Below, one piece after another: positions 3,172-29,719 of a stretch of DNA of 32,107 nucleotides. Under the pieces are notes generated by a model that saw only the letters and a program-made list of their open reading frames with translations, was not told where the DNA came from and did no database searches. The stretch spans positions 57,500 through 89,606 of the forward strand of contig PGYT01000031.1 in NCBI GenBank assembly GCA_002839805.1, written 5' to 3'. The position numbers were made by a program, and so were the translations under genes. Position 1 is the first letter of the stretch; every line of letters begins with the position of its first letter. The DNA is from Ignavibacteriae bacterium HGW-Ignavibacteriae-2. Lineage in GTDB: Bacteria; Bacteroidota; Ignavibacteria; Ignavibacteriales; Melioribacteraceae.

Positions 3172-3194
3172 AACTTGTACTTCATGTACATTCA

Positions 3195-3232: not shown

Positions 3233-3257
3233 ATATGATTTAGGCGGCTTTTCATAA

Positions 3258-7135: not shown

Positions 7136-7139
7136 GTGA
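7134..7139 (+). promoter_or_regulatory. Ribosome binding site that decides the DUF6850-A start
   Basis: AGGTGA overlaps the TAG stop of the preceding gene and lies 5 nt before the ATG at 7145. The alternative GTG at 7136 is inside this site and has no site of its own, so 7145 is the better start. Confidence 0.6.
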
Positions 7140-7144
7140 ATTTT

Positions 7145-8650: not shown

Positions 8651-8663
8651 CAAAGGAAATTTT

Positions 8664-10940: not shown

Positions 10941-10946
10941 TATATT

Positions 10947-10951
10947 AAGGA
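10947..10951 (+). promoter_or_regulatory. Ribosome binding site supporting a TTG start
   Basis: AAGGA lies 8 nt before the TTG at 10960. This supports a non-ATG start for the C25 peptidase and argues against the in-frame ATG at 10897, which lies inside the upstream gene and would put a poor sequence before the signal peptide. Confidence 0.55.
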
Positions 10952-10959
10952 TAACAATC

Positions 10960-13323: not shown

Positions 13324-13388
13324 TAGTTATTATTGTTTATTTTTCCGCATTAACTTTATTGGATAAAAGAATCCACCTGTGCGTTTTG

Positions 13389-13937
13389 ATGAATGATGAA
13401 AGAATAGATGAAATAATAGTAAAAATTAAACAGGATGATGAAAACGCATTTCGTGAACTGTTTTTTATTCTCCATCAACCCGTTTATCGTTTTATTTATC
13501 GCATGATAAATGATTCCGAAATTTCCAAAGATCTTACTCAGGATACATTTATAAGATTTTGGAATTCAAGAAAAATATTAGACATATCTCAATCCCCTAC
13601 GGCATACATTTATAAAATCGGCAAAAACCTTACACTTAATCATATCCAGAGAAATGTGAAATTATCTCGGTTAGAGGATATTAAAAAAGTCTCTGATTAT
13701 TCAGTTAATGTTCATCTATATGATGAGTATGACAACAAAGAATTAATAAAAGATCTAAATAATGCTTTGCAGCTTTTGCCTGAAAGATGCAGAATGGTTT
13801 TTGTATTAAGCCGTTTTAATGAAATGAAATATACCGAAATTGCCGAAGTAATGGGTACTTCTTTACAAACTGTTAAAAATCAAATGAATAAAGCCCTGGG
13901 TTTGTTAAGAAAACACCTTGACGTTCATAAGGATTAA
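13389..13937 (+). CDS. ECF RNA polymerase sigma factor (FecI-like)
   Basis: Predicted sigma-70-family extracytoplasmic-function factor of 182 residues, acting on the genes of module B. Region 2 is about 19-55 (FRELFFILHQPVYRFIYRMI, SKDLTQDTFIRFWNSR, with SPTAYIYKIGKNLTLNHI following). Region 4 with its helix-turn-helix is about 125-180 (LPERCRMVFVLSRF, KYTEIAEVMGTSLQTVKNQM). I prefer the ATG at 13389 because the family homology begins at once (NDERIDEIIVKIKQ); an in-frame TTG at 13359 would add ten residues. No strong ribosome site is visible, suggesting low basal translation. It is followed by its FecR anti-sigma after 104 bp. A Fur-like site and a palindrome lie upstream. Confidence 0.9.
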   Translation: MNDERIDEIIVKIKQDDENAFRELFFILHQPVYRFIYRMINDSEISKDLTQDTFIRFWNSRKILDISQSPTAYIYKIGKNLTLNHIQRNVKLSRLEDIKKVSDYSVNVHLYDEYDNKELIKDLNNALQLLPERCRMVFVLSRFNEMKYTEIAEVMGTSLQTVKNQMNKALGLLRKHLDVHKD

Positions 13938-14041
13938 AAATTTAATAGTACTTTTTTCTATTTCCGGTGTATTTATTAAGTATACAATCAACTGGAATTG
14001 TTTAAAATATTTGGTTGTTATAATTAAGCAAGGGAAAGAGA

Positions 14042-15109
14042 ATGACTGAAGAAATATTCGTTAGATATATTAACGACGACCTTAACGATGATGAACGCGA
14101 AGAGTTTGAGCAATGGCTGAATTCCAATTCAGAGAATAAAAAAAGTTTTAACGAGTTTAAAAATTTCTGGATTATATTCGATAAACTGCCCGCCGCCGAT
14201 TTACCCAATACTTTGACCCAATGGGAAGCTATTCAGCGTAAAATATCAGAATCAAGTTCAATTAGTAAAACTAATGTCTCAGATAAAATATTCAATAAAT
14301 CAAAAGGGCACTACGGTCAATATTCGAGTGTAGGGCAATGGATTGTAAAAATAGCGGCTGTATTGATAATTGCATCCCTTGTTGTTCTTGTTGATTATAA
14401 AACTCCCGTTAATAAACCGGATTCCGCACAATTAGTAACTCCAGTTGAAAAAAATGAAATATATACCCGAAAAGTTGCAAAGGGTGAAACGGCCACAGTG
14501 CGTCTTGCAGACGGTTCCTATGTAAAAATAAATTCCGATAGTCAGGTAAAATACCCGCGTTTTTTCGAAGGGGAAGAGCGATTGGTGGAACTTAAAGGAG
14601 AAGCCTTTTTTATTGTTGAATCCAATAAAAACAAACCATTTAAGGTGAAAATCGGGGACATTATCACCGAGGTAGTTGGTACTGAATTTAATATTAAGGC
14701 TAGAGGATCCTGCAGTTATGAGCTTGTTGTAGTTAAGGGGGAAGTAAAAGTTTACAAAGACGCTTCAGTGTCTTCGAATCCGCATAGTGTTAAACGTGGT
14801 GAGATGATTACTTATAATATGACCAGAGGATTTTCAAAACCTAGAAAAGCCGAAAACGATCATCTTACAGCCTGGCTTCAGAATAAAATTTCTTTTAGAA
14901 ATACGAGATTGGAAGAAGTTTTGCAAGAAATTGAAAGGCTTTATGACGTAAATATTAAACTAATGGACTCTGATATTAAAGAAAAACGATTGACCGGTGT
15001 TTTTGAGAAAAAATCTTTAAAAGAAACTTTAAACGCTATATCAATTTCGCTAGATCTAAACATTGTTTATTCGGAACATTCAATTATTGTAGACAAAATA
15101 ACTAGATAG
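14042..15109 (+). CDS. FecR-family anti-sigma factor
   Basis: Inner-membrane anti-sigma regulator of 355 residues that should hold the ECF factor inactive until the STN-type receptor reports substrate. The N-terminal about 60 residues form the cytoplasmic anti-sigma region (FVRYINDDLNDDEREEF, FNEFKNFWIIFDKLP). One transmembrane helix is at about 100-118 (WIVKIAAVLIIASLVVLV). The periplasmic FecR domain is about 140-260 (VRLADGSYVKINSDSQVKYP, LKGEAFFIV, VVGTEFNIKA, VVKGEVKVY). A DUF4974-like C-terminal domain occupies about 280-350 (FRNTRLEEVLQEIERLYDV, LTGVFEKKSLKETL), as is usual in Bacteroidota/FCB FecR proteins. AGGGAAAG sits just before the ATG. The receptor gene starts 10 nt after its stop. 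Confidence 0.93.
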   Translation: MTEEIFVRYINDDLNDDEREEFEQWLNSNSENKKSFNEFKNFWIIFDKLPAADLPNTLTQWEAIQRKISESSSISKTNVSDKIFNKSKGHYGQYSSVGQWIVKIAAVLIIASLVVLVDYKTPVNKPDSAQLVTPVEKNEIYTRKVAKGETATVRLADGSYVKINSDSQVKYPRFFEGEERLVELKGEAFFIVESNKNKPFKVKIGDIITEVVGTEFNIKARGSCSYELVVVKGEVKVYKDASVSSNPHSVKRGEMITYNMTRGFSKPRKAENDHLTAWLQNKISFRNTRLEEVLQEIERLYDVNIKLMDSDIKEKRLTGVFEKKSLKETLNAISISLDLNIVYSEHSIIVDKITR

Positions 15110-15119
15110 AAAACGAATA

Positions 15120-18098
15120 ATGACAATTCAAAAATTTGTATTTCGCCTAATTAAAAGATCATCGGGTCTCATGATGCTTGTTATGGTTTCTGTTGTGTTG
15201 CTGTCATTTCAAGTGAGCGGAAAAACATTCTCCAAGCAACAAAACGTCAAAAAACAGACTGCTTTGATTTCGACCGATAAAGCGGAGCTCGACATACTTA
15301 AAAAAAGAATAAATATTAAGGCTGTTAATTCTAATTTGCAGGTGTTCCTGGATCGTTTGTCCGTTGAATCCGATGTGTTTTTTATATACGAAAACGAGTT
15401 GATAAATAAAGAAATAACAAATCTTGAATTTGAAAATGAGGAGTTGGGTGAAATTCTGGATAAACTTCTTACAAATTATGATATAGGGTTTATGCTTTTG
15501 GATGAAAACCGAATCGTAATCGCTTCGTTAGAATCACTTCAGGATAAAACAGGAAGAATTAAAGGGATAGTCACGGACGAAAAAGGAGTCTTACTCCCTG
15601 GCGCAAATGTAATAGTTGATGAGAATAAATTCGGCAGTGCATGCAGTCACAGGGGGATGTACGTAATAAGCAATTTGAAACCTGGGCGCTATACTGTTAA
15701 ATCTTCTTTTATAGGTTATAAACCTCAAATTAAAACAGTAATGGTTTTACCAGGTAAAACAACGGAATTAAATTTCGAATTAATGGCCGAATCTTTCCAA
15801 ATTGGAGGAATTGAAGTTACCGCGGCTCAGGAACTGTTGCCTACAGAAGTTAATTCGAAAACAGAAATAAATAGCGGGGAAATAGAGCATTACCAGGCTA
15901 CCCATCTTGGTGATGTGCTTGATCTTGTGCCGGGAATTCAGAAAACGGATAATCCCGGGATTGGAAAAACAAGTAAGGTTGCAATACGCGGCGGTTCGGA
16001 AGATGCTTTATCCGCCTTCGGCACAAAAGTTATTATAGATGGTATCCCAATTTCTAATAATGTTAATCTTCAATACGAATCATTGGTGGGCTCAAAATTC
16101 GGCGGATCCACAATGGGAAGCAGTATCGATTTAAGAACAATTCCTGCAGATAATCTCGAAAATATTGAAGTTATAACGGGTTTGCCTTCAGTTAAATACG
16201 GCGATTTTACTTCGGGTATCATTAATATTAAAACAAAAACCGGTGTAAGTCCGCATAGATTAAAAATAAAAACAAATCCTAAAAATAATGAAACCAACCT
16301 TGGCGGTGGATTTGCTCTAAATAGCGGTGCTTCTTTAAGTTACAATGTAAACGCCGCAACAAGCCAGCGTGACCTTCGACTTGATGGTGATGAATTTACA
16401 CGTTATACGGGACAGCTTGTTCATAACGACTTTTTCTTTTCAGGCTGCGTGAATAATAATATCAAATTTAATATGCAGGGAATTTACGATGAAGAAGAAC
16501 CTGAGAATGATTATAGCAAAACAAATAATTATAATCGCGGTTTTGAAGTAGGACTTGCCGATTGGGGCGAATATGTCAGTCAGGGCGAAACTTCAAAAAT
16601 TGAATACAACGCTTACGTTAGAATGAAAAGGATTAATTCGCGCAAATCCAAATTACTAACCTCAGATATGCGCGTATTGCCGAACGGGGATAGTGTTACT
16701 TCGTATATCGGTGTTGTAAAAAACGAAGGACTTGAATGGACCAGCGGGGCTACCTTCGATTGGAATTCGGTTTTTTTCACTGGTCAGTACATTCATAAAG
16801 TTTTGGCGGGTATCCAGTTTAGCTATGAAGCTAATACAGGTGACGGGATTATAATAGATACATTATTCAATTATTATGGGGCCGATTCAAAAAAACGTTC
16901 CTATTCATACGATAACATACCGGCATATAAAATTTTAAGTTTATATGCTGAAGATAAAATTACAGGACACCTTTTATTTGATTTTTCACTTATGTTCGGG
17001 TTTAGATATGAGATGTATAATCCTCAGAAGTTTAATATAACCGGTCTTTGGGGAGACGGGGATATAATTCAATCAAAACAAGGAACTTATTTTAATCCTC
17101 GAGCAAGTATATTGGTTTATTTGAGTGATCAAAATCAATTAAGATTAAGCGCCGGAAAAACTAGTAAAGCTCCTCCTCTCTCATCTTTATATAAACCCAA
17201 TGATGTTTTAACGTGGCGCAATCCTTATAGCCGCGACCTGCATTATGTTACCATAGATTTAAAGAGACCAAATCTGAAAGGTTATTCGGAACTTCAATTT
17301 GAAATTGGATACGATCATAAGTTCTTCAATTTTTTGGGTCTTTCATTAACTGGTTATTATAAAGAAAGAAATAACGAAATTGAGTCATCGCGACTGCCGG
17401 TTTTTATTGAAACCGATTTGAGCGGCGCAAATGAACTCTTTTATATCGATACATACTCTTCAGATGAAAATTTCGGTTCATCAATTACAAAAGGAATTGA
17501 ATTTTCATTAAAGACGAATAAAATAAAATCTATCAATACCACATTAATTATTAACGGATCTTACAGTTACAGAAATAAACCGGGCTCTACAATTGTATAT
17601 GACAAAAATCCCGACGAAAGTTTGGGACAATACGAAAATTATATCGTTCACACATCTACAGGTGATCAGCTTTATGGTTGGACTTATTTGGCCGCTGGTA
17701 ATTGGAAAGATCAGTTACAACTGAATTATTATATGCAATACACTCACCCAGAATTAGGATTGTGGATCACTTTGAGGGCGGAACAGCTTTTCAGTGATAG
17801 ATCGAAAAAGTATAATCTTGAACCTGTAGATGAATCCTTGTTAAATCCTGAAAAGTTAATATCCCGTGAGTACGAAGGACAAATAAAAACAAAACCGATT
17901 AAATGGCTTTTTAATTTCAGCATAAGCAAATCCTTATTCCCAGGCGCTGAAGTTTCTTTCTATGTTAATAATTTTTTGGATGACCCTGCTGTGTATTCAT
18001 ATTATCAAAGCTATAACACAAAAATATATAGTAATCGGAATCCCGATTTATTCTACGGGCTCGAATTCAGTATGATATTTGACGAAATAATTAAATAA
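15120..18098 (+). CDS. TonB-dependent receptor with STN signalling domain, module B
   Basis: Outer-membrane importer and signal transducer of 992 residues. A signal or anchor segment is at about 15-35. The STN domain follows at about 55-135 (LDILKKRINIKAVNSNLQVF, LGEILDKLLTNYDIGF), the part that contacts FecR. The CarboxypepD_reg-like sandwich is about 144-230 (IKGIVTDEKGVLLPGANVIV). IGGIEVTAA at about 228 is a possible TonB box. The plug (VAIRGGSED, VIIDGIPISNN, IEVITGLPSVKYGD) and a barrel ending NPDLFYGLEF complete it. It is a paralogue of the receptor at 3258 over the sandwich, plug and barrel (for example GLWGDGDIIQSKQGTYFNPR against GLWGKGDLIKGKNGSYFNPR). It is adjacent to the sigma and FecR genes, so it forms a complete FecA/FecR/FecI-like relay. 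The substrate is unknown. Confidence 0.93.
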   Translation: MTIQKFVFRLIKRSSGLMMLVMVSVVLLSFQVSGKTFSKQQNVKKQTALISTDKAELDILKKRINIKAVNSNLQVFLDRLSVESDVFFIYENELINKEITNLEFENEELGEILDKLLTNYDIGFMLLDENRIVIASLESLQDKTGRIKGIVTDEKGVLLPGANVIVDENKFGSACSHRGMYVISNLKPGRYTVKSSFIGYKPQIKTVMVLPGKTTELNFELMAESFQIGGIEVTAAQELLPTEVNSKTEINSGEIEHYQATHLGDVLDLVPGIQKTDNPGIGKTSKVAIRGGSEDALSAFGTKVIIDGIPISNNVNLQYESLVGSKFGGSTMGSSIDLRTIPADNLENIEVITGLPSVKYGDFTSGIINIKTKTGVSPHRLKIKTNPKNNETNLGGGFALNSGASLSYNVNAATSQRDLRLDGDEFTRYTGQLVHNDFFFSGCVNNNIKFNMQGIYDEEEPENDYSKTNNYNRGFEVGLADWGEYVSQGETSKIEYNAYVRMKRINSRKSKLLTSDMRVLPNGDSVTSYIGVVKNEGLEWTSGATFDWNSVFFTGQYIHKVLAGIQFSYEANTGDGIIIDTLFNYYGADSKKRSYSYDNIPAYKILSLYAEDKITGHLLFDFSLMFGFRYEMYNPQKFNITGLWGDGDIIQSKQGTYFNPRASILVYLSDQNQLRLSAGKTSKAPPLSSLYKPNDVLTWRNPYSRDLHYVTIDLKRPNLKGYSELQFEIGYDHKFFNFLGLSLTGYYKERNNEIESSRLPVFIETDLSGANELFYIDTYSSDENFGSSITKGIEFSLKTNKIKSINTTLIINGSYSYRNKPGSTIVYDKNPDESLGQYENYIVHTSTGDQLYGWTYLAAGNWKDQLQLNYYMQYTHPELGLWITLRAEQLFSDRSKKYNLEPVDESLLNPEKLISREYEGQIKTKPIKWLFNFSISKSLFPGAEVSFYVNNFLDDPAVYSYYQSYNTKIYSNRNPDLFYGLEFSMIFDEIIK

Positions 18099-18102
18099 TT
18101 AT

Positions 18103-19206
18103 ATGAAAAAAAATTATTACACCATTGTTTTTTTAGCACTGCTGCTCATTAGCGCATGCAAGGAAGAAGGTCCGGTAAATATTGATGGACAAGCTGAATG
18201 GAAGATTTATACTATTTGGGACCGTTCTGCTTACGACAGTGATGATCCTTTCAAACCGTTAAGCAATGCCAAGATAGTCTTTAATTATGACTACGGCGAA
18301 TTTTCGAAACTAACCGATGAAAATGGTGTGCTTAAATTATATAATCTTCCTTCCGGGATTTATACAATTTCGGTTGTTGGCAGCCACCCTGAAGATGATA
18401 ACATTTTTCTTGTCGGAAATAAAAAAGAAATTCGAATATGGTCCGGCGGTTCATACATCGATACAATTTTTACAATGGCTGTCTCGAGTTCCGGCATTGC
18501 AATAAACGAGGTTTATTTTGCAGGTCCGGTTAATAGAATATTTTATTTCTTCGACCAGTTTGTTGAGTTATACAATAGTAGCAATGAGATAAAATATCTG
18601 GACGGTATGGTGCTGATGCGGGTTTCTGGAAATCAGGATGATGGAGAACGTGGGCCGGGCGCAGATGAAAATTCAGACGGTGATATTGATGGTATAACAT
18701 ATGCTTATCAGTTTCCGGGTAAACCCGGAGGAAAAGAATATCCTTTCCTTCCGAAAACTTTTCTCGTAATAGCTTCTGATGCTGTGGATCATAGAAAATA
18801 TGTTTCAACCAGCATAGATTTAACTATTGCCGACTGGGAGTGTTATAATCAATACGCGAGTAATGAGTCCGATAACGTCAATGTACCTAATCTTTTAAAC
18901 TTGTTTCCCGAAAAAACTACAGACTTTTATATTTCTCTCGGCAGCGATATAGTTGTTCTGGCTACGGGCGAAGATACCGATCTTGAAGACGGTCTTGACA
19001 TAGATACTATTATTGACGGGTTGGAATATGATATGAACGTGACCTCACTTAAAACATTAGATGACAGAGTAGATAGAGGAAGAGCAAAAGCGCCCGCCAA
19101 ATATTCGGGTCAATCCATTCAAAGAAAAGTACCAGGAGTTGATACAAACGACGGAACTTTGGATTGGGAAATTTTAAACGGTACAACACCCGGTTATCAT
19201 AAATAA
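18103..19206 (+). CDS. DUF4876-type surface lipoprotein, module B
   Basis: Predicted lipoprotein of 367 residues, 4 nt after the receptor stop. The signal ends in a lipobox LLISAC with Cys19 as the lipid attachment residue, followed by KEEG. About 25-105 is a beta-sandwich with a CarboxypepD/CNA-B look (LTDENGVLKLYNLPSGIYTI). From about 130 there is a lamin-tail-like segment (IAINEVYFAG, QFVELYNSSNEIKYLDGMVL). The marks FPGKPG, YPFLPKTFLVIA, DHRKYV, SIDL and NVPN align in order with the module A lipoprotein. The acidic loop GADENSDGDIDG at about 187-198 resembles a calcium-binding loop; the module A paralogue lacks it. The function is not known; a partner of the adjacent receptor is inferred. 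Confidence 0.78.
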   Translation: MKKNYYTIVFLALLLISACKEEGPVNIDGQAEWKIYTIWDRSAYDSDDPFKPLSNAKIVFNYDYGEFSKLTDENGVLKLYNLPSGIYTISVVGSHPEDDNIFLVGNKKEIRIWSGGSYIDTIFTMAVSSSGIAINEVYFAGPVNRIFYFFDQFVELYNSSNEIKYLDGMVLMRVSGNQDDGERGPGADENSDGDIDGITYAYQFPGKPGGKEYPFLPKTFLVIASDAVDHRKYVSTSIDLTIADWECYNQYASNESDNVNVPNLLNLFPEKTTDFYISLGSDIVVLATGEDTDLEDGLDIDTIIDGLEYDMNVTSLKTLDDRVDRGRAKAPAKYSGQSIQRKVPGVDTNDGTLDWEILNGTTPGYHK

Positions 19207-19219
19207 TTAATTATCTGGT

Positions 19220-20692
19220 ATGAATAGAATGAAAATTAAATCCGGCGCAATAATTTTTTTACTTTTCTTATCGATCAATACATTTGCTCAAAAAAGCAGA
19301 ACCATGGCTATGGGTAATTTGAGCTACTCAATTATTGACAGTGATTACAGTATTAATATGTTCGATATCGGATATAATCCCGCTTGGCTAATAGCTGATA
19401 GTAAAGACGCAAAATTGGAGTTTACCCCTAACTATACTAATTCCAAATATGATTTTGCCAGAAAATATTCGCCCGAATCGTCAGACAATTATAATATATT
19501 CTCCACCGCTGTTAAACCATTAGGAAACGCAGGTACCTTTAGGGGTTCGGCTTCATATAATTATCTTAGTATGAATAATTATAATAGAACAATTGAATTA
19601 AACCCTTATACAGGTAAAGGATTTTTTTACGCTGATACTACCAACGGCGATTTTACCTATAAAGGACCTTCATTTCAACTTATGCATAGCTTAAAGCTCT
19701 CAGAAAAAATATACATTGGAGGATCGGTTAATTATAAAGTCTGGGACGGACTAAAAGAAATTTCATCATACGCTATTACAACATTTAGAGATGTTAATTT
19801 AAATGTAGGTGTAGCTTATAGTTTGCTCGACAACTTGACTCTTGGTACAAATTTCATTTTCAACAGTTCTCAGGAGAATATCGAAATAAACGACCCCAAT
19901 AATCTTAGTATTACTATTGATAATATTTTTGGTGAAAATTATTCAGTCCGTCTGATTACTGGTGATAAAAACGAAAAAATTAGAAATAGCTCTTCAGTAA
20001 CAAATTTTCAAATTCAGTGGCAGCCCGCAATAAATATTGACGTTTTATTCACCGGATCTTTAGAGAACGCCAACTCCGCTCTGTTAAATTCTAGTTCTGC
20101 AACATTTAAAGACAGGGAGGATAGTTACGCAAACTTTTATGGTGTTAATGCTGGTCTGATATCTCAGTACAGAATTAGCAAAGAATTTATCGCGGGACTC
20201 AAAGCCCAATATAATAAACTTGAAAGCTGGACAAAACTTAGCGCAAAAAATCTGAAAATTTGGGACTGGGAAACTAATAGATCAATTGTTGGCTTGGGAT
20301 TATCATATAATCCAGCTAATTCCGATTTTCTAATCGGAGTTGAATATGAGTTTTCAGATTTTTCAGCTGACTCATCAAAATATATTGACAATAAATACAA
20401 TTCGATTTCTTCGATCGATCATTTAGTTAAAATCGGAGCGGAATATAAACTTTTATCCTCACTGATTTCACGAGCTGGATATAATTATCAAAAAGTTGGA
20501 GAGGATCTCATTTTCGGCGCAAAAGATCTAACATTAAACAGATTTACATTGGGGCTGGGGATTAAACTTACCGAAGCATTCACGCTCGACTTTTCCGTGG
20601 ATTATATTCTTATGAAGCCTGGGACAACAAATAATAATATCAGTAACGACATATTTGTTTGCTCTGCTACATTAAGGACATACACTTTTTAA
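19220..20692 (+). CDS. DUF6850-type outer-membrane beta-barrel protein, module B
   Basis: Predicted outer-membrane protein of 490 residues. The signal peptide covers about 1-24 (ends in TFAQ). Many amphipathic strands rich in Asn, Ser, Tyr follow (for example SLKLSEKIYIGGSVNYKVW, FTLGLGIKLTEAFTLDFSVD), and it ends in RTYTF with a terminal Phe, the typical last residue of a BAM-inserted barrel. It sits 13 nt after the DUF4876 gene and occupies the same slot as the protein at 7145, with which it shares YNPAWL/ENPAFL near the N-terminus. The start could also be the ATG three codons in (19229); the ribosome site is weak for both. Function is unknown; it is likely a structural partner of the receptor complex. 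Confidence 0.7.
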   Translation: MNRMKIKSGAIIFLLFLSINTFAQKSRTMAMGNLSYSIIDSDYSINMFDIGYNPAWLIADSKDAKLEFTPNYTNSKYDFARKYSPESSDNYNIFSTAVKPLGNAGTFRGSASYNYLSMNNYNRTIELNPYTGKGFFYADTTNGDFTYKGPSFQLMHSLKLSEKIYIGGSVNYKVWDGLKEISSYAITTFRDVNLNVGVAYSLLDNLTLGTNFIFNSSQENIEINDPNNLSITIDNIFGENYSVRLITGDKNEKIRNSSSVTNFQIQWQPAINIDVLFTGSLENANSALLNSSSATFKDREDSYANFYGVNAGLISQYRISKEFIAGLKAQYNKLESWTKLSAKNLKIWDWETNRSIVGLGLSYNPANSDFLIGVEYEFSDFSADSSKYIDNKYNSISSIDHLVKIGAEYKLLSSLISRAGYNYQKVGEDLIFGAKDLTLNRFTLGLGIKLTEAFTLDFSVDYILMKPGTTNNNISNDIFVCSATLRTYTF

Positions 20693-20713
20693 AAAACGAG
20701 GAGACTACCTGTT

Positions 20714-22942
20714 ATGTTAAATAAGTTATATTGTTTTGTTTTAATAATATTTATTACCACGGTTTCTGCTCAGGAATTTCAAAAAGTTAATTCTGAAACT
20801 TACCCTCCGTTAAAAGATATTTTCTTCATAAATGATAATACCGGCTGGATTGTAAGCGATAGAGATTTTGCTACTAAGCTGCCGGTAATTTTAAAAACCA
20901 CCGACGGAGGTGTAACATGGTTCCAACAGAATCATGACGTTTTCGATAAATTTCTATACTCGGTTTTCTTTATAGATGAAAACAGAGGCTACGTTGGCGG
21001 CAGCGGAGACCTACTTTTAAGTACTACAGACGGTGGAGACACTTGGGTGTCTTCTGCCGTAGGATCATCCGGTGGTTCGGTAAAAGATATTTATTTCGCA
21101 AATGAGTCGACCGGATGGCTACGTTTATCTAAATCGTCCAATGCACAAATCCTTTATACAAATGACGGCGGAACTACCTGGAAAGAAGTGCTTAAGGTTT
21201 CAAAAGATCTTTATTCGATGAGTTTCGCCGGGTTAAACGTGGGTGTGGCGGCTGGAAAAAGTAAAGATGATATGTATTATACAACAGATGGTGTTACATG
21301 GAGATTGGGCGAATCTGAAAATTACGGGGATTATATTTACACTAAAACAAACTGCAACGCGCTTTATATGGTCACTGAAAATTTTGTTTACGGAGTAGGC
21401 TGGGGTTCTGCTTCAGCGGGTTTGCAGCCGTCAATATTAATTAAATCTACTAATGGTGGCAAAACATGGAAATATCTCGATCAATCTGATGAAAATAAAG
21501 TTTATGCAAATATAAACGATATGTATTTCGAAAACGGGCTTAGCGGAATATGTTTCGGGGGCGGAGCTCAATACGGAAGTGTTGCTTTAAGAACAACTGA
21601 CGGCGGTAAAAAATGGATTCCAATAGAAACGTCTTTCGGATTTAATATTTATGCTACTGCAAAAGCAGGAAATAAACTTTTTATTGTTGGCGCCGGTGGA
21701 AATATCGCCTATACAACGGATATGGGTGTTTCCTGGACTAATATTACACCAATGCCGGAAGCTACCCTGTATAGCATAACATTTCCTGGTGGTAACTCGG
21801 GCTATGCTGCTGGTTTCGACGGACTGCTCGTAAAAACTACCGACGGCGGTCAAACATGGATCCCTCAATATGTTGCCGTTAATAAATCCTGCCCTAAAAT
21901 TGAAAACATATTTTTTGTTGATGAAAATGTAGGATATATTGGGCGCGCATACGGAATGATAGTTAAAACTACTGATGGTGGCGACAGCTGGAGCGTATTA
22001 AGAGAAGCGGGAATGAGCTCTTTTGAAAATTATTACGCGCTAAATTTTCTTGACGCTGACTTCGGTTATATCGCAGGAAGAATTGATAAGGATATTGATA
22101 TTTTATTTAAAACCACCGACGGCGGAACAACATTTACAGAAAAATCCAATAATTTCCAGGAATCTATTTATGGTATTCATATCATAGATAAGAATAATGC
22201 TGTATTTGCTGGTGATGATTTATTGCTGGCCTATACTGAAGATGGTGCGGAGTCGTTTAAAAGGGCAAATATTATGGGAGCTTCGCATACAGATTCTACC
22301 ACTGCGGTTGACTTTATCGACTTTATTGGGAAAACCGGACTGGCGGTGGGGCAGAATATGATATTTAAAAGTGAAGACGGCGGGAAGAATTGGAATAAGT
22401 CATTATTCGATTCGGTTGATATCGCCTTTGAAGGCATACTAATTATTAGCGACCAAATATATTATGTAATTGGTGATAAAATTATATATCACTCAATAGA
22501 TGGCGGTGCAACGTGGACAGATGTTACAAATAGCGAAGAAATTGACGAGTATCTAAGAGCGATTGCCATTAATGAATCGAGCAATACCATTTGGCTTTCG
22601 GGTAATGGATCTAGTATTTATAAAGCTGACTGCCCTTATCCTCCCACTTCAATTAAATTAGTTTCCTCAGAAGTACCGGAAAGTTTTAACCTGGACCAAA
22701 ATTATCCGAATCCGTTTAATCCGATGACAAAAATCAATTATAATATTACGGAATCAGGATTTGTGGAACTTAACGTATTTACATTAACTGGTGAACTAGC
22801 GGCAAAACTTGTTAATAAAGTTCAAAAGGCCGGTTCTTACTCAGTTAATTTTAACGCTGAAAATTTAGTCAGCGGAATTTATTTCTACACTTTATCGAGT
22901 AACAAAAAAATAACAACTAAAAAAATGGTGCTATTAAAATAA
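20714..22942 (+). CDS. Secreted YCF48/Asp-box propeller protein with T9SS sorting domain, module B
   Basis: Predicted T9SS-exported surface protein of 742 residues. Residues 1-19 form a signal peptide ending in VSAQ. About 22-635 hold 13 Asp-box-like motifs ((T/S)xDGGxTW; a few degenerate, such as TEDGAESF and TTDGVTW), the same count as in the proteins at 394 and 8664. About 654-742 is a type A T9SS C-terminal domain (QNYPNPFNPMTKINY, GSYSVNFNAENLVSGIYFY, KMVLLK). A strong GAGGAGA ribosome site (20698-20704) precedes the ATG by 9 nt. It is the last gene of module B. A ligand-binding or scaffold role at the surface is inferred. Confidence 0.88.
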   Translation: MLNKLYCFVLIIFITTVSAQEFQKVNSETYPPLKDIFFINDNTGWIVSDRDFATKLPVILKTTDGGVTWFQQNHDVFDKFLYSVFFIDENRGYVGGSGDLLLSTTDGGDTWVSSAVGSSGGSVKDIYFANESTGWLRLSKSSNAQILYTNDGGTTWKEVLKVSKDLYSMSFAGLNVGVAAGKSKDDMYYTTDGVTWRLGESENYGDYIYTKTNCNALYMVTENFVYGVGWGSASAGLQPSILIKSTNGGKTWKYLDQSDENKVYANINDMYFENGLSGICFGGGAQYGSVALRTTDGGKKWIPIETSFGFNIYATAKAGNKLFIVGAGGNIAYTTDMGVSWTNITPMPEATLYSITFPGGNSGYAAGFDGLLVKTTDGGQTWIPQYVAVNKSCPKIENIFFVDENVGYIGRAYGMIVKTTDGGDSWSVLREAGMSSFENYYALNFLDADFGYIAGRIDKDIDILFKTTDGGTTFTEKSNNFQESIYGIHIIDKNNAVFAGDDLLLAYTEDGAESFKRANIMGASHTDSTTAVDFIDFIGKTGLAVGQNMIFKSEDGGKNWNKSLFDSVDIAFEGILIISDQIYYVIGDKIIYHSIDGGATWTDVTNSEEIDEYLRAIAINESSNTIWLSGNGSSIYKADCPYPPTSIKLVSSEVPESFNLDQNYPNPFNPMTKINYNITESGFVELNVFTLTGELAAKLVNKVQKAGSYSVNFNAENLVSGIYFYTLSSNKKITTKKMVLLK

Positions 22943-23190: not shown

Positions 23191-24927
23191 ATGAAAAATA
23201 AAATTTATTATATACCCATTCTGCTTTTCAGTTTTATTCAAATTATTAATGCACAAGTATTACCTGGTTATGAAGACGGTTTAAAGACAATATCGGCTAA
23301 AGAATTAAAGCAGTACGTCTATTTTCTTGCGGATGATAGTATGAAAGGAAGAGCCGCAGGCAGTGATGAAAATCTTCTTGCCGCAATGTTTATTGCCGAA
23401 AAATTTAGAGAAGCTGGTCTGACACCAGCATTCCCTGACAAATATAATCGTAAGAAAGAAGAATCAGACTATAAAGCTCCCCTTAAAATTTCTAATTCCG
23501 GTTTGTATGATGAGTTCTTCCAGAAGTTTACACTTCAAAAAACCAAACTAACTGAAAACTGCGCATTATCGGTAACACAAAAAAATGAAGTCGGTTCGGT
23601 TGAAGTCTCTTATGAAATGGGCAAAGATTTTTTTATAAAATATTCCGGCGGTGAAGACGTTAAATATGAAGCTCCCATGGTATTTCTGGGATACGGAATT
23701 TTCGACGGCGAAAATGGTTACTCTGATTTTGTTGATTCTGATGGAAAAGAAATAGACTTGAAAGATAAAATTGCGGTAATGGTCGATAGTTATCCCCAAG
23801 CAAATGATACTGCCAGTGCCTTTTCAATAGCCAATAAAATTGAATATAGGATATTTAAACACAAAGCCAAATATGCTTTGGATAAAGGCGCACTAGCTGT
23901 GTTTTCAGTCCAGTCTCCATTATTTCAGGAAGCGCCAGTTGATATTAAATATGATAAAACGCTCGATTTGGCCGAAAGGGTTTATACAAACCTGCACGAA
24001 AGAGAAAGAAAGGAAATACCTGTAATTTATCCCACAAATAAAATTGTAAAAGAAATATTTGAACACATGTGTGATAAAGATTTAAAATCTTTGTTAACCA
24101 AAATTGATACAGAGCTAAAACCACAGTCTTTCGAATTCCCAAATATCAGCGTATCCATAAAAATTGATTTGGAATATGAAACGTTAAATACACAAAATGT
24201 AATTGCATATTTAGAAGGAAGCGATCCTGCACTAAAAGATGAAGTTGTTGTTTTCAGCGGTCATTATGATCATGTGGGGATTGGAGAATATGGCGCACTG
24301 GATAAATCCCGCATTGGGGAAGTGCATAACGGCGCGGATGATAATGCGAGTGGAACTTCAGGCCTAATTGAATTAGCGCAGGCTTTTTCCGTAAGCAAAC
24401 CTAAACGAAGTGCAATATTTATAGGTTTTAGCGCTGAAGAAAATGGATTGTTGGGTTCAAAATTTTATGTTCGCAACCAGCCTGTATTCCCCATTGAAAA
24501 AACTGTCGCTATAATCAATCTTGATATGATAGGTAGAAATGCACCGGAATTGGTTTGGGTTGGCGGCGCTTTTTACGGCAGAGACATAATTGAAACCGCT
24601 AAGCAGGCTAATTCATTAGTAGGAATGGAACTGCTTTATAATATTGGTTTTCTTGGCAATGCAAGCGATCAGGCCCCGTTTCTTCATGAAGACATACCGG
24701 CAATATTTTTCTTTGCGGGTTTGCACGATGATTATCACACCCCTGATGATGATGCCGACAAATTGGATTACAATAAAATGAAAAGAATAACAGATCTCGC
24801 TTTTTTAAGCGGTTGGATTCTTACCAATCAAGAAAAAAATCCTGTTTATGTGGATATACCAATGGACGAACGTTCTGAAATAGTTAAAGATTCTGTAAAA
24901 AGGCAGAGAAAGTTCGAGAAAAAATAA
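23191..24927 (+). CDS. Exported M28-family zinc aminopeptidase
   Basis: Predicted periplasmic or secreted metallo-aminopeptidase of 578 residues that would trim peptides from the N-terminus. Residues 1-22 are a signal peptide ending in INAQ. About 140-330 look like a PA-type insert (FLGYGIFDGENGYSDF, KDKIAVMVDSYP). The M28 catalytic core follows with the two-zinc ligand set in order: His358 (GHYDH, with Asp360), the GADDNASG loop (Asp383/384), Glu416-Glu417 (SAEENG; base and ligand), Asp445 (NLDMIG) and His516 (DDYHTPDD). All key residues are present. There is no T9SS domain. GGAG lies about 12 nt before the ATG, a long spacing. The M16 gene begins 26 nt after its stop, so the two are probably cotranscribed. 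Confidence 0.92.
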   Translation: MKNKIYYIPILLFSFIQIINAQVLPGYEDGLKTISAKELKQYVYFLADDSMKGRAAGSDENLLAAMFIAEKFREAGLTPAFPDKYNRKKEESDYKAPLKISNSGLYDEFFQKFTLQKTKLTENCALSVTQKNEVGSVEVSYEMGKDFFIKYSGGEDVKYEAPMVFLGYGIFDGENGYSDFVDSDGKEIDLKDKIAVMVDSYPQANDTASAFSIANKIEYRIFKHKAKYALDKGALAVFSVQSPLFQEAPVDIKYDKTLDLAERVYTNLHERERKEIPVIYPTNKIVKEIFEHMCDKDLKSLLTKIDTELKPQSFEFPNISVSIKIDLEYETLNTQNVIAYLEGSDPALKDEVVVFSGHYDHVGIGEYGALDKSRIGEVHNGADDNASGTSGLIELAQAFSVSKPKRSAIFIGFSAEENGLLGSKFYVRNQPVFPIEKTVAIINLDMIGRNAPELVWVGGAFYGRDIIETAKQANSLVGMELLYNIGFLGNASDQAPFLHEDIPAIFFFAGLHDDYHTPDDDADKLDYNKMKRITDLAFLSGWILTNQEKNPVYVDIPMDERSEIVKDSVKRQRKFEKK

Positions 24928-24953: not shown

Positions 24954-27737
24954 ATGAAATCAAATTTTAATAAATCAATAATTCTATTACTACTCATTGT
25001 TCTTTGTTTTTCAATTGAAAGCAACGCTAAAACAAATATTTATGAGGAGGGAAAACTTTACCGTCATAAGCTTGATAACGGACTTGTAGTTTTAACAATG
25101 GAACGGCATATAGCTCCTTTAATTTATCATCAACTCACTTATAAAGTTGGCGCGAGAAACGAGAAATTAGGCTATACGGGAATTTCGCATATAGTTGAGC
25201 ATATGATGTTTAAAGGCACGCAAAAATTTAAAAAAGGTGATGTGTCAAAATTGATTTCATTAAACTCCGGAATGTTTAACGCTTTTACAATGCGCGACAT
25301 GACAAGCTATTATGAATATATGCCCGCGAATAAAATCGAACTAGCTATGGATATTGAATCAGATAGAATGATGAATAGTATTTTTGACCCGGATGAATTT
25401 AAATCCGAAGTGGAAGTTATTAAGCAGGAAAGACGAATGCGAGTTGAAAGCAACGCTCAGGGTGTTTTTAGTGAAGCCCTTTATAATATTGCCTATCAAA
25501 GTCATCCGAATCAAAATCCGGTTATTGGCTGGCCCAACGATCTTGATAATATTACTCGAAACCAGGCATACGATTATTACCAAAAATATTATACTCCGAA
25601 TAACGCTTTTCTTGTTCTCATTGGGGACTTTAACACTGAAGATATTATAAAACTTACAGAAAAATATTACGGCGGTATCCCCAAAGGGCCGGAGCTTAAG
25701 GAAGAATCACTTTATGAAGAAGAACAACTTGTAGAAAAATCTTTTAAGTATACTCATAACGATTTCCAATTTCCTATACTTACTATGTCCTTCCATATTC
25801 CGGTTTATACTCATAAAGATATTGCCGCATTAAAAGTCGGCACGAAAATTTTGTGCGAAAAAAGTAGAACTTCAAGATTGTATAAACTTCTTGTTGAAAA
25901 TGAAAAAATCGCTACAACAGTAGCTGGTGGCTTTGGTATTACGAAAGATCCTGGATTGTTCAGAATATCAGTTACAGTAAAAGCAGACAGCTTAATAGAA
26001 AAAACAAAAGGGCTTATATTAAATGAAATTGCTCTTATGCAAAATGAGAATATATCTGATTATGAGTTAGAAAAAACCAAGAACAGGTTTAAATTCGCTG
26101 AAGTTCAAAGCGGCGTAAAAAATGTGGAGCTTGGCAGAAGAATAAGTATGTTCGAAGCTTACTACGGATGGGAAAGCTATGATAAATATATAAATAGTGT
26201 TAAAACCGTAAGCAAAGAAGATATAAAAGATGTAATGAAAAAATATCTTCTTACAACCAACCTTACCGTAGGCATAATGATGCCCAAAGAAGGTGAAACA
26301 GATTGGCAGAATAGAAAACCAATAAATATAGAAGATTTAGATGAGGAAGGAAATTCTTTCTATTATAAAAATCCATGTCCCTTTGACGATTTACCGCTAA
26401 TTACTGAAGATGATTTTGAGGATATAATTTATCCCAAAAAAATCGCTCCTCTTATTAAAGAAGCAAAACTATCCAATGGTATTAAGGTTTACACTATCGA
26501 AAATCATCTTGTCCCATCAATTTCCTGTGCGGGATATATAAATACGGGAATGATAGAAGAAACTTTTCAGGGCGCTCAGCCGGGCATTACTGATTTGCTT
26601 GCTTCGGTTATGAATAGGGGAACCGAAAAAGATGATTACGAAACTTTATCCGAACGAATGAGTTTTATTCCAATTTCTTTCGGGGTAAACGGAGGGCTTA
26701 AAGGGCTGTCCTTTATGGGCAATTCCTTAATTGAGAATAAAGATGAAATGTTTAACACGGGATTCGAAATTCTTACTATGCCTCGCCTCGATAAAAAAGA
26801 TATTGAAATGATTAAAAGTAAAAATATTCCAAAGATAGAAAAAAGATTGTCCTCTACCGGAATGAAAGCTTTTTATTATATGTATGATACTATTTATAAA
26901 GAACATCCCTTTTCTACTAGCGTCCCGGAAGTTGAGTCATTCAAAAAAATTACTCGAGAAGATTTGATCGGTATTCATAAAAAATATTTTCGACCTGAAT
27001 TAACTTCCCTGCTGATTGTGGGAGATATGAGTCATTCGGAAATGGTTGCTACAGCTGAGAAACATTTTGGCAAATGGAAAAATAATAATCAGCCCGTCAC
27101 TCCCATAGAAATGCCAACAACACTTCCTCTAAAAGGAAGAGTTATTAAAGTATTTAAAGACAACGATTATAAACAATGTACTATAAATATTGGATTCGCA
27201 CCGGTTAATAATATTCTTCCTGAAGATGAAGAGGCTGTAAATATTCTAAATTATATACTGGCTTCAAGCGCTCTTACATCAAGAATTGGATTGGAGCTCA
27301 GAGATAAACAGGGATGGATATACGGTTTAAAAAGCGAACTTCACTCCCAGACGACAGGGATTGGTTATTGGAAATTAAATACTAAAACTTCCGTAGAAAA
27401 TACAGCCAATGTTATTAAGGGTATTTTCGAACAAATCGATCTGCTCGAGAATAATGGTGTAAGTGATGAAGAGTTAAAAAACGCGAAAAATCATTTATTG
27501 GGACTCCTTCCTTTTTATGTTGAAACCCCTGACGATATAGCAAATATTGTAATCAATACGATAATTAGGAATGAACCACTTGATAATTATGATAAAATAG
27601 CGGAAAGAATTATCAGCGTTACGAAAGAAGACGTAGTTAAAATGGCGGAAAAATATTTACAGAAAGATAACTGTGTTATTGTTGTTGATGGACCCATAGA
27701 AGAAAATTCGTTGGATTATTTAATAGAAGCACTTTAG
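24954..27737 (+). CDS. Exported two-domain M16 peptidase (FusC/PqqL-like architecture)
   Basis: Predicted periplasmic zinc peptidase of 927 residues with both M16 halves in one chain. The signal peptide covers about 1-25 (ends in SNA). The N-terminal half has the inverted zinc motif HIVEH (His79, Glu82, His83), with Glu159 in KQERRMR at the expected distance as third ligand. The C-terminal half starts at about 495 and has GITDLLASVMNRGT where the motif would be, so it is catalytically dead. The substrate-binding region DKQGWIYGLKSELHSQTTG is present near 785-803. The length and active/inactive arrangement match FusC and PqqL, periplasmic M16 proteases linked to TonB receptors (FusC cleaves imported ferredoxin). 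A GTGAGG ribosome site precedes it. It lies between the M28 gene and the ferredoxin gene. The natural substrate here is unknown. Confidence 0.92.
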   Translation: MKSNFNKSIILLLLIVLCFSIESNAKTNIYEEGKLYRHKLDNGLVVLTMERHIAPLIYHQLTYKVGARNEKLGYTGISHIVEHMMFKGTQKFKKGDVSKLISLNSGMFNAFTMRDMTSYYEYMPANKIELAMDIESDRMMNSIFDPDEFKSEVEVIKQERRMRVESNAQGVFSEALYNIAYQSHPNQNPVIGWPNDLDNITRNQAYDYYQKYYTPNNAFLVLIGDFNTEDIIKLTEKYYGGIPKGPELKEESLYEEEQLVEKSFKYTHNDFQFPILTMSFHIPVYTHKDIAALKVGTKILCEKSRTSRLYKLLVENEKIATTVAGGFGITKDPGLFRISVTVKADSLIEKTKGLILNEIALMQNENISDYELEKTKNRFKFAEVQSGVKNVELGRRISMFEAYYGWESYDKYINSVKTVSKEDIKDVMKKYLLTTNLTVGIMMPKEGETDWQNRKPINIEDLDEEGNSFYYKNPCPFDDLPLITEDDFEDIIYPKKIAPLIKEAKLSNGIKVYTIENHLVPSISCAGYINTGMIEETFQGAQPGITDLLASVMNRGTEKDDYETLSERMSFIPISFGVNGGLKGLSFMGNSLIENKDEMFNTGFEILTMPRLDKKDIEMIKSKNIPKIEKRLSSTGMKAFYYMYDTIYKEHPFSTSVPEVESFKKITREDLIGIHKKYFRPELTSLLIVGDMSHSEMVATAEKHFGKWKNNNQPVTPIEMPTTLPLKGRVIKVFKDNDYKQCTINIGFAPVNNILPEDEEAVNILNYILASSALTSRIGLELRDKQGWIYGLKSELHSQTTGIGYWKLNTKTSVENTANVIKGIFEQIDLLENNGVSDEELKNAKNHLLGLLPFYVETPDDIANIVINTIIRNEPLDNYDKIAERIISVTKEDVVKMAEKYLQKDNCVIVVDGPIEENSLDYLIEAL

Positions 27738-27772: not shown

Positions 27773-29719
27773 ATGAAAAACAAACCTCGTATAATTATTC
27801 AGCTACTTATACTTTTAATGATTCTGTACGTTGCTATACGCCCCTTATTCGACGTTAGCTATGCTGGGGATTTTGAAGCTTATTGTCCGTTTGGTGGAAT
27901 TTCTTCACTTTTCAGCAAACTTGAGATGGGAACAATGTCATGCTCAATGAGTGAAGTTCAAGTAATGATGGGCATTGGACTTCTTGTTGGTGTAATACTT
28001 ATAGGTAAACTTTTCTGCAGCTATATTTGCCCCATTGGTGCGGTAAGTGAGTGGTTGGGAAAATTGGGAGCAAAATTAAAAATCAGAATGGATTTACCTT
28101 CTTATATCGATAGACCGCTACGTTCATTAAAATATATCCTTGTATTTATTACGATCTATTTTACTATGACGAGTAGCGAATTATTCTGTAAAGAATTTGA
28201 GCCATACTTTGCGGCAGTTAATTTATTCGGAAATTCTGATATTAATTTGACATACGCTATTATAGCATTTGCAGTAACTATTATCGGAGCAGTTGTATTT
28301 CGTTTGTTCTGGTGCAAATATCTTTGTCCGTTGAGCGCTATGAGCAACATATTCTTAAATGTGTTCCCGGTTTCAATAGCCATTATTATATTTATCCTTA
28401 TAAATGCATTTGTTGCTCCATTAAGTTTTGTTTGGCTTTTGGCTGTTATAGTGTTAATTGGATTGATAAGTGAAGTTGGTTTCTTAAAAAGTTTCATTCT
28501 TCCGGCGGCAAAAATTGTGCGAAACACAGATACTTGCACTAGTTGTGGGATCTGCGAAGCAAATTGCCCACAGGGGATTGATATAACTAAGTATAATGTA
28601 ATAAATCATGCAGATTGTAATTTGTGCACTGATTGCGTTTATGCCTGCCCAGTAAAACAATCATTGCAAATAAACAACAAAAAATCGACCAAATATCTTG
28701 CGCCTATTGCTACAGTTGTCCTTATTCTTGTCAGTTTGGGATTTTCCACACAGATAGAATTTAAAACTATTTCGGAAAGATGGGGGAATTTTGATGAACT
28801 TGAAAACGTCGGCGTCTTTACTAAAGAAGGACTTAAAAATGTAAAATGCTATGGCAGCGCCATGTCATTAAAAAATCAGATTCAGAAAGTTGAAGGTATT
28901 CATGGACTTGACGCTTATGCGGCTTCTCATACTGTAGAAATATATTACGATAAAAACAAACTGTCTGAATTGGATGTTAAGAAGGTGATTTTCTCACCGA
29001 TAAAACAAAAAGTAAGAAATATTAAAGATAAGTCCATAGATTCATTATCTATTTACGAAGTGGGGATAAATAATTTATTTGATAAGGTAGATGATACTAA
29101 TCTTGTATTCGCTTTAAGAGAAAAAGATGGTGTTTATGGGTTTGAAACATATTTTGGCGAACCAGTTAAAGCGATTATATATTATAATGAATCATTGATA
29201 AATCCTAGTGGAATTGATTCTTTAATAAATACGAAAGTTATTGAAATAAAGAAAAAGAATGGAGTGCAGCAGCTTGAACTAAACTTCGAAATTGATGGAA
29301 AAGGAAAAGTTACAGGGAAAATGGGCCGTTATGAATATGAAAAAAACATGTTTCCTGAGTTTGACAGACAGTTTAATAAATATGAAACCAAAGACGAGGC
29401 AAAACTTTCAGTGCTTATTTATCCGATGCCGGAAGCCGGTCACCCCTTATTAAAGATGAGGTTAAGTTATTTAACAAGCCATTTGTCCAAAGACCCGGGA
29501 ATTGTGAGGATGAGAACTTATTATGAGGACGAACCGATGGCTATGATTTATTTTGATTCAGAGCTTACAAACCTTGAAAAAGTTAAAGAAGCAATTAAAA
29601 ACCCTGTTCTGAGAGTTAGTTTTTCAAATGGTACCGAAAAAGATGTTAATAATCCTTACAAAAGCAAACCAGATGGAAAAGTGATTTTAGCCGGCGAACT
29701 TCCGGAAGATAAAAAATAA
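27773..29719 (+). CDS. Membrane 4Fe-4S protein (NapH/NosR-like) with three C-terminal HMA-like repeats
   Basis: Predicted inner-membrane electron-transfer protein of 648 residues. Hydrophobic segments occur at about 5-24, 65-82, 118-136, 161-180, 197-232 and 308-326. An AYCPFGG motif (Cys38) is of the kind seen in NosR/NapH-type proteins. CxxxCP motifs lie at 82-86 and 181-185. Two cytoplasmic-type 4Fe-4S clusters are built from Cys255, 258, 261, 265 and Cys282, 285, 288, 292. The last about 300 residues hold three HMA-like ferredoxin folds at about 350-412 (KCYGSAMS, GIHGLDAYAASHTVEIYYD), 428-495 (GVYGFETYFGEPVKAIIYY) and 544-622 (GIVRMRTYYEDEPMAMIYFD). Only the first keeps one cysteine (Cys359). 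GCGGAGA precedes the ATG. It is the last gene before the terminator at 29762. It may supply electrons to reduce a metal or a cofactor in the periplasm; this is inferred. Confidence 0.8.
   Translation: MKNKPRIIIQLLILLMILYVAIRPLFDVSYAGDFEAYCPFGGISSLFSKLEMGTMSCSMSEVQVMMGIGLLVGVILIGKLFCSYICPIGAVSEWLGKLGAKLKIRMDLPSYIDRPLRSLKYILVFITIYFTMTSSELFCKEFEPYFAAVNLFGNSDINLTYAIIAFAVTIIGAVVFRLFWCKYLCPLSAMSNIFLNVFPVSIAIIIFILINAFVAPLSFVWLLAVIVLIGLISEVGFLKSFILPAAKIVRNTDTCTSCGICEANCPQGIDITKYNVINHADCNLCTDCVYACPVKQSLQINNKKSTKYLAPIATVVLILVSLGFSTQIEFKTISERWGNFDELENVGVFTKEGLKNVKCYGSAMSLKNQIQKVEGIHGLDAYAASHTVEIYYDKNKLSELDVKKVIFSPIKQKVRNIKDKSIDSLSIYEVGINNLFDKVDDTNLVFALREKDGVYGFETYFGEPVKAIIYYNESLINPSGIDSLINTKVIEIKKKNGVQQLELNFEIDGKGKVTGKMGRYEYEKNMFPEFDRQFNKYETKDEAKLSVLIYPMPEAGHPLLKMRLSYLTSHLSKDPGIVRMRTYYEDEPMAMIYFDSELTNLEKVKEAIKNPVLRVSFSNGTEKDVNNPYKSKPDGKVILAGELPEDKK

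Follow-up and report, generated by a model that had tools for sequence, protein, structure and literature searches.

Why would a membrane ferredoxin end in a row of heavy-metal-associated (HMA) folds whose metal thiols are gone? The question is raised by one gene in a 32,107-nucleotide stretch of DNA (the window) from Ignavibacteriae bacterium HGW-Ignavibacteriae-2 (assembly GCA_002839805.1, contig PGYT01000031.1, positions 57,500 to 89,606). A preliminary description, made from the letters alone, had read the open reading frame at 27773-29719 as a polytopic ferredoxin fused to three degenerate HMA-like domains; we call the product FeS-HMA. We find the HMA fold predicted three times, with altered and invariant sites in the first two copies, and gene surroundings that likely give the protein a job. 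FeS-HMA probably moves electrons outward across the membrane and, since its neighborhood resembles a locus of gut bacteria that responds to iron starvation, may belong to an apparatus for metal uptake.

27773..29719, plus strand: FeS-HMA protein, membrane ferredoxin fused to three HMA-like domains (648 amino acids, ATG start)

FeS-HMA Homologs in the Sampled Genomes

The reading frame proved exact, and homologs in 14 of 57 relatives align over nearly the full length with 48–61% identity, one being cut by a contig end (15 of 58 match when the window's own genome is counted). The wider searches covered samples, namely 391 genomes of a larger class and 395 and 247 of a larger phylum, and the profile searches scored three candidates per genome and may miss distant relatives. 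Matches were found in 11 of the 395 phylum genomes (E ≤ 1e-30), all 11 in one class, and in 30 of the 391 genomes sampled from that class (E ≤ 1e-60). This gives 34 different genomes, every one of a single class among the genomes sampled. Records named Melioribacteraceae, Melioribacter and Ignavibacteriales carry the gene as well and overlap with genomes already counted. For the C-terminal half we used an alignment of the C-terminal parts of 32 homologs collected out of whole genomes (A2). The copy of genome G387, which lies in two overlapping frames (locus L101, 15013-16984; a true break or an assembly error), was excluded from A2, and the copy of G658, at a contig edge, is outside the 33 loci described below.

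A plasmid search with the C-terminal part as query gave no match. In the open-licence literature, as far as its texts were available to us, we found no description of the family; PMC6769254 was rejected as a candidate, the subject of its available part being copper proteins of beta-proteobacteria. Two spirochaete matches (L023, L024; 21–23% identity) are by eye ferredoxins with many 4Fe-4S sets and without HMA and were set aside, as were L025–L027 (short ferredoxin matches only) and L028 (55 residues matched, in the region of copy 1 only).

The HMA Fold Is Predicted Three Times

28808..29011, plus strand: HMA-like copy 1, residues 346-413 (AlphaFold2; hhalign; sub-threshold Pfam HMA match)
29042..29254, plus strand: HMA-like copy 2, residues 424-494 (AlphaFold2; VIA 3dxs Z 9.2; hhalign)
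29261..29371, plus strand: insert between copies 2 and 3, residues 497-533, with hairpin, helix and short strand (AlphaFold2)
29405..29620, plus strand: HMA-like copy 3, residues 545-616, with fragmented helix 1 (AlphaFold2; hhalign; VIA)

With A2 (32 sequences) as input, AlphaFold2 modeled three beta-alpha-beta-beta-alpha-beta units with six elements each (mean predicted local distance difference test score, pLDDT, 93.8; predicted template modeling score, pTM, 0.85). The preliminary description had seen the HMA pattern three times and had staked its claim beforehand on these segments adopting this very fold, as they do in the model. A single-sequence run on the whole protein reached a mean pLDDT of 34.5 and was not used.

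Profile comparison points the same way. Copy against copy, the scores were 43.6 for copies 1 and 2 (highest of 30 column-shuffled controls, 15.2), 36.5 for 1 and 3 (14.0) and 58.0 for 2 and 3 (20.1); against 30 canonical HMA domains they were 34.9 for copy 1 (15.1), 28.1 for copy 2 (21.0) and 28.5 for copy 3 (21.6). All six pairings exceed all 30 controls, with the smallest margin for copies 2 and 3 against HMA, where the matches span 41–42 columns and cover the second half of the fold only. The insert, taken as negative control, scored 14.1. The hhalign E-values are pairwise and not database-calibrated.

A fold search with VIA-align placed copy 2 on HMA domains (3dxs, Z 9.2, root mean square deviation 2.1 Å over 74 residues; 2qif, 8.7; 3cjk, 8.7), and each of the 11 rows with Z ≥ 8.0 is an HMA domain from a copper ATPase or chaperone. 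Copy 3 fell on ATP7B repeat 2 (2lqb, Z 7.1, root mean square deviation 2.5, 74 residues), and the same stretch is matched little lower by unrelated folds (3fj2, Z 6.5; eIF4E, 6.3). From Z 7 downward, unrelated folds appear among the rows as well, some of them on copy 3 (eEF1B, eIF4E, a monooxygenase). As its structural match is so weak, the case for copy 3 comes chiefly from the model and the profile comparison. No row covers copy 1 alone, which is not evidence against copy 1. Foldseek gave no match at E ≤ 1e-3; HMA domains (2rml, 3.0e-3; ATP7B) were mingled with unrelated ferredoxin-like folds (a polyketide ABM domain, 3.4e-3; monooxygenases; eIF4E).

The relaxed Pfam HMA (PF00403) search proposed earlier succeeded for the copy 1 region, with a sub-threshold match at residues 355-399, and failed elsewhere, the Pfam scan giving no HMA match over copy 3 or most of copy 2; HMA_2 matched sub-threshold at 363-439. 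The C-terminal part of the window protein scores 18.3 bits against a gathering score of 24.8, and 11 of the 32 A2 members match PF00403 at E ≤ 0.01 (best 2.6e-6). Judged by Pfam and NCBIfam, standard libraries thus show a membrane ferredoxin resembling NapH and NosR, and a trace of a single HMA domain.

Two of the Three Sites Are Altered and Invariant

28847..28858, plus strand: C359-x-x-S362, CxxC position of copy 1 (both residues 33/33; aligned to canonical CxxC)
29081..29092, plus strand: D437-x-x-D440, CxxC position of copy 2 (both 33/33 and invariant in the 32 rows of A2; placed by low-score global hhalign, spacing and model position)

Canonical HMA domains (PF00403; HMA7 3dxs, CopZ 2qif, CopA) share the predicted fold with FeS-HMA and, for copies 1 and 2, a spacing as well: the glycine after helix 1 is 16 residues past the first site residue, and at that distance from the first Cys a G, N or D precedes V/I/L/M in 29 of the 30 canonical domains (in 14 of them also at 19). 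FeS-HMA differs from them in carrying CxxS in copy 1, DxxD in copy 2 and no conserved site in copy 3, and in having three units in a row behind an electron carrier. In copy 1, C359 stands opposite the first Cys of CxxC and S362 opposite the second, while D437 and D440 of copy 2 face the two Cys in a low-score global alignment; the global hhalign scores (25.3, 20.4, and 18.0; probabilities 32, 11, and 6%) were used only to locate the residues facing CxxC. The AlphaFold2 model has C359 and D437 directly before helix 1, and S362 and D440 in its first turn. Near the corresponding region of copy 3, M552 and H570 are each kept in 32/33.

Among the 318 positions of A2, 23 are invariant and include C359, S362, D437, and D440; the chance of all four being invariant is ∼2e-5, a post hoc figure. 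Five of the 33 listed relatives have one extra Cys in the C-terminal part, away from the HMA site. For the window the earlier count holds (one Cys at the copy 1 site, none in the other two copies), and C359 is kept in 33/33. The label "degenerate" is too weak for copies 1 and 2 given their invariant CxxS and DxxD, sites that look as if they were changed and then held fixed rather than simply eroded. The suggestion that metal could be bound through other residues gains some support from the DxxD of copy 2, although metal binding itself is putative.

The Repeats Are Predicted to Lie Outside the Membrane

27773..28762, plus strand: N-terminal membrane-ferredoxin half, residues 1-330 (family-averaged hydropathy, loop charges)
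27884..27886, plus strand: C38 in CPFGG, predicted extracytoplasmic, invariant (32/32), L in the NapH-like paralog
27941..27943, plus strand: C57, predicted extracytoplasmic, invariant (33/33), gap in the NapH-like paralog
28016..28033, plus strand: first CxxxCP motif, C82-C86 (33/33), also in the NapH-like paralog
28187..28189, plus strand: C139, predicted extracytoplasmic, invariant (33/33), gap in the NapH-like paralog
28313..28330, plus strand: second CxxxCP motif, C181-C185 (33/33), also in the NapH-like paralog
28535..28651, plus strand: two 4Fe-4S ferredoxin sets, C255-C292, predicted cytoplasmic (Pfam Fer4_10, Fer4; eight Cys 33/33)

Averaged hydropathy gives six transmembrane helices at about residues 7-25, 64-82, 157-175, 197-215, 219-237, and 308-326. 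A putative seventh at ∼118-135 stays under the cut-off (best 19-residue mean 1.28, 15-residue mean 1.52). It is flanked by a K/R-rich loop (83-117; 6.4 K+R, 3.5 D+E) and an acidic one (136-156; 1.1 K+R, 4.0 D+E), and with less confidence we take it to span the membrane despite its low hydropathy. With this helix, the ferredoxin loop is predicted inside and C38, C57, C139, and the repeats outside, which would make the C-terminal half extracytoplasmic.

Fer4_5, Fer4_10, and Fer4 reach the Pfam cut-offs in the N-terminal half, and the CPFGG, the two CxxxCP motifs and the two 4Fe-4S sets described before are all present. The 16 cysteines of the window protein are all invariant, and four of them (C38, C57, C139, and C359) are predicted outside the membrane. 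The 12 cysteines of CxxxCP and 4Fe-4S are common to FeS-HMA and the best-scoring paralog of the same genome, the one paralog compared, whereas C38, C57, and C139 are not.

That paralog (L044, 4403-5515) is NapH-like and 36% identical to FeS-HMA over residues 34-199; its open frame lies beside genes read as NrfH and NrfA. Ferredoxins of the NapH/MauN type have two CxxxCP motifs, two 4Fe-4S sets and a membrane core, as FeS-HMA does, but not the HMA-like repeats. NosR is a membrane polyferredoxin with a CxxxCP pair as well. FeS-HMA differs from it by its HMA-like C-terminus. The Pfam list up to E 10, whose filters drop most weak matches, comprises 16 families and no flavin mononucleotide (FMN)-binding domain; nor does it name a PepSY or PepSY_TM domain of the FoxB kind. 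The proposed resemblance to NapH and NosR therefore stands, while membership in these families does not, the NCBIfam scores being far below the cut-offs for NapH/MauN (TIGR02163, 38.8 bits against 213) and NosR (NF046105, 41.2 bits against 1000). The model for the cupric reductase CcoG (TIGR02745) gave 20.3 bits against 316.7. The MerTP fusion (NF033556) matches residues 292-406 at E 2.4e-8, with 33.8 bits against 180, and shares a membrane helix followed by HMA; to our knowledge MerTP has no ferredoxin.

The outer cysteines could also mean that FeS-HMA is a periplasmic thiol reductant, in which the outer cysteines, C359 included, would take up electrons and act as dithiol/disulfide pairs that keep a receptor or a secreted protein reduced, with the HMA-like units serving for docking only. 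The four are invariant and even in number, three of them are not in the compared paralog, and copy 3 retains its fold without a conserved metal site. However, C359xxS362 itself lacks a resolving Cys, no thiol-disulfide protein is among the scanned neighbors (not every neighbor was scanned), and the invariance of D437 and D440 is left unexplained. We regard this explanation as improbable.

FeS-HMA Lies in an Uptake-Type Locus

The locus around FeS-HMA is of the uptake type, which goes beyond what the preliminary description had claimed. In the window, FeS-HMA is the last in the following order of genes.

13359..13937, plus strand: ECF sigma factor (Pfam)
14042..15109, plus strand: FecR-type anti-sigma factor (Pfam)
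15120..18098, plus strand: TonB-dependent receptor with carboxypeptidase-regulatory-like domain (Pfam)
18103..19206, plus strand: DUF4876-cluster protein (BLAST cluster; PF16215 match within, G000:C7:76262-76486)
19220..20692, plus strand: DUF6850-cluster protein (BLAST cluster; PF21012 matched in cluster member L041 14627-16084, not from a scan of this gene itself)
20714..22942, plus strand: YCF48-like beta-propeller with type IX secretion system (T9SS) sorting tail (Pfam)
23191..24927, plus strand: M28 peptidase (Pfam)
24954..27737, plus strand: M16 peptidase, ending 35 bases before the FeS-HMA start codon (Pfam)

Genes were assigned by BLAST clusters, with Pfam names taken from cluster representatives. 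In 28 of the 33 loci, the stretch with FeS-HMA also holds one or more of TonB receptor, DUF4876, DUF6850, ATP-binding cassette (ABC) ATPase, DUF4857, M16, and M28. Across the 391 sampled class genomes, DUF4876 occurs in 28 of 30 FeS-HMA genomes against 11 of 361 others (Fisher 1.5e-31) and DUF4857 in 20 of 30 against 2 of 361 (Fisher 3.8e-24), values that ignore shared ancestry and linkage. The window has DUF4876 and the TonB receptor beside FeS-HMA, the receptor half of the locus, and DUF4857 was not found in its genome.

In seven of the 33 loci FeS-HMA, ABC ATPase, a permease of ∼222 amino acids and DUF4857 form an uninterrupted row on the same strand, at distances of 0–17 (FeS-HMA to ABC), 8–38 (ABC to permease) and -4 to -1 bases (permease to DUF4857). 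NosR likewise goes with ABC ATPase and permease genes in the NosR-NosFY layout. FeS-HMA might then be a NosR-like maturation factor, which together with the ATPase and permease would supply electrons for maturing an extracellular metalloprotein of the locus. NosR is indeed the best NCBIfam match. Against this, the score is far short of the NosR cut-off, no FMN-binding domain is listed, no metalloenzyme partner was identified, and DUF4857 is absent from the window's genome, so that we hold such a role to be quite improbable.

Several further features of these loci were observed. The module of TonB receptor, DUF4876, DUF6850-cluster and YCF48-like T9SS protein is present twice in the window (394-10940 and 13359-22942), one copy further upstream. 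Between them, 10897-13167 encodes a 756-amino-acid HEAT-repeat protein (HEAT_2 the only match), whose listed start overlaps the preceding open reading frame and whose N-terminal part presumably resembles a C25 (gingipain-like) peptidase. In L085, L087, L088, L090, L091, and L100, DUF4920 (PF16267 in the one scanned) and PepSY_TM_like_2 form a pair in the same cluster, which may be a further partner. In L103 (6919-10847; G211) FeS-HMA follows an NrfH-like gene (by reading) and a cytochrome c552 gene (PF02335), a setting that resembles that of the NapH-like paralog. The genes 3′ of FeS-HMA in L035 and L036 (G036, G038) read like the molybdenum-cofactor genes moeA, mobA, and moaA.

Similar Loci Respond to Iron Depletion

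In the available part of a transcriptome report (PMC10434189), iron depletion raised BT3625-33 of Bacteroides thetaiotaomicron 37–128-fold. This set, termed a putative fimbrillin locus by its authors, holds DUF4857, a hypothetical protein, an ABC ATPase, two PepSY-associated transmembrane proteins, a fimbrillin-family protein, two DUF4876 proteins and a TonB receptor. DUF4857, ABC ATPase, DUF4876, and TonB receptor are common to it and many relatives of the window; it differs in having PepSY-associated transmembrane proteins and, in the part of the source available, no membrane ferredoxin listed. The same text gives 21–215-fold induction for PG1019-22 of Porphyromonas gingivalis (DUF4876, TonB receptor) and 3.5–7.4-fold for BT1933-39 (HEAT, DUF4876, TonB receptor) (PMC10434189). 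Both sets share DUF4876 and the TonB receptor with the window, and their entries, as available, name no membrane ferredoxin. A HEAT-repeat gene is found in BT1933-39 as at 10897-13167 of the window.

In the phylum sample of 247 genomes, 9 carry DUF4857, and three of the 9 lie outside the FeS-HMA class. Two of these three (L149, L150, L151) have TonB receptor, DUF4876, ABC, and DUF4857 without an FeS-HMA match; L149 and L150 also hold PepSY_TM_like_2, and DUF6850 was recognized in L150 by Pfam and in L151 by BLAST. The third (L152) has a looser set without DUF4876. The idea that FeS-HMA replaces PepSY_TM was rejected, as PepSY_TM_like_2 is present in 22 of 34 FeS-HMA genomes, in four loci (L087, L088, L090, and L091) on the same stretch as FeS-HMA. 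According to the accessible text of PMC13038864, a few characterized PepSY_TM proteins are periplasmic ferrisiderophore reductases; one PepSY_TM protein has been proposed for copper (PMC13038864; PMC12914433, each in its available part).

Proposed Role of FeS-HMA

Given the likeness of the locus to iron-responsive sets and the PepSY_TM reductases, an electron-transfer role in metal uptake is the most economical explanation, with iron first and copper second. We tentatively propose, at somewhat less than even confidence, that FeS-HMA is the electron-transfer (metal-reductase) component of a TonB-dependent acquisition locus for metal, most likely iron, and that its HMA-like repeats are a periplasmic receiving or docking module. 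Computation supports the fold and the invariance of its sites, the topology estimate, the locus, and the phyletic coupling to DUF4876 and DUF4857. A cytosolic donor would load the two 4Fe-4S clusters, which with the CxxxCP-bearing membrane core would hand electrons across the inner membrane. At the periplasmic face, C38, C57, C139, C359, and the HMA-like repeats would receive or dock an imported metal complex, which would be reduced and then released for transport. We infer the electron direction, the identity of the metal, its binding by CxxS/DxxD and the reductase activity.

Several points weigh against this proposal. The topology hangs on the weak seventh helix, without which the repeats are inside. 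Five loci (L040, L099, L103, L107, and L109) are outside an uptake-type cluster, the window's own genome is among those in which DUF4857 was not found, and the co-occurrence values carry the effects of ancestry and linkage. The top structural neighbors of the repeats are copper proteins, and a DxxD iron site in an HMA fold was not met in the literature examined. PepSY_TM_like_2, a small family of putative function, shows no clean swap with FeS-HMA. The iron induction reports, in their available parts, concern B. thetaiotaomicron and P. gingivalis, not the FeS-HMA class. An oxidative-stress study (PMC10101095) also tabulates PG1019/1020, at 4–9-fold, so that the response may not be iron-specific.

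A bolder form of the iron proposal, rather unlikely in our estimate, is a periplasmic iron-handling HMA relay, whose HMA folds, with CxxC rebuilt as CxxS/DxxD for a harder metal, would be covalently tied to a metal-reducing membrane ferredoxin. C38, C57, C139, and C359 might together make up a cluster or transfer site on the outer side. If true, TonB uptake loci would have in this relay a second, non-heme means of doing what PepSY_TM reductases do.

The metal could instead be copper. FeS-HMA would then be a cupric reductase like CcoG, which we take to be a membrane polyferredoxin of the same general kind, or like the PepSY_TM protein CrpH. Its Cu(I) would go to the assembly of oxidases, and C359xxS would be a relay site for Cu(I) in weakened form. 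The 11 best VIA rows, all from copper ATPases or chaperones, fit this explanation, and TIGR02745 does match weakly, though far short of its cut-off. A TonB-dependent copper importer is in one operon with CrpH, a possible periplasmic copper reductase, in the available parts of two reports (PMC13038864, PMC12914433). However, the related loci, as far as the source is available, respond to iron, and the site offers no second soft ligand, S and D replacing Cys in 33/33 relatives. We consider copper unlikely.

Reduction and hand-over of TonB-imported metals in the periplasm are known for few proteins, the PepSY_TM reductases among them, and a conserved family in which HMA folds with rebuilt sites are fused to a membrane ferredoxin is a possible alternative route. 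The locus is also a candidate setting for DUF4857, DUF4876, and DUF6850 proteins outside Bacteroides. Finally, the FeS-HMA family is a natural experiment on what the HMA fold does once its thiols are gone.

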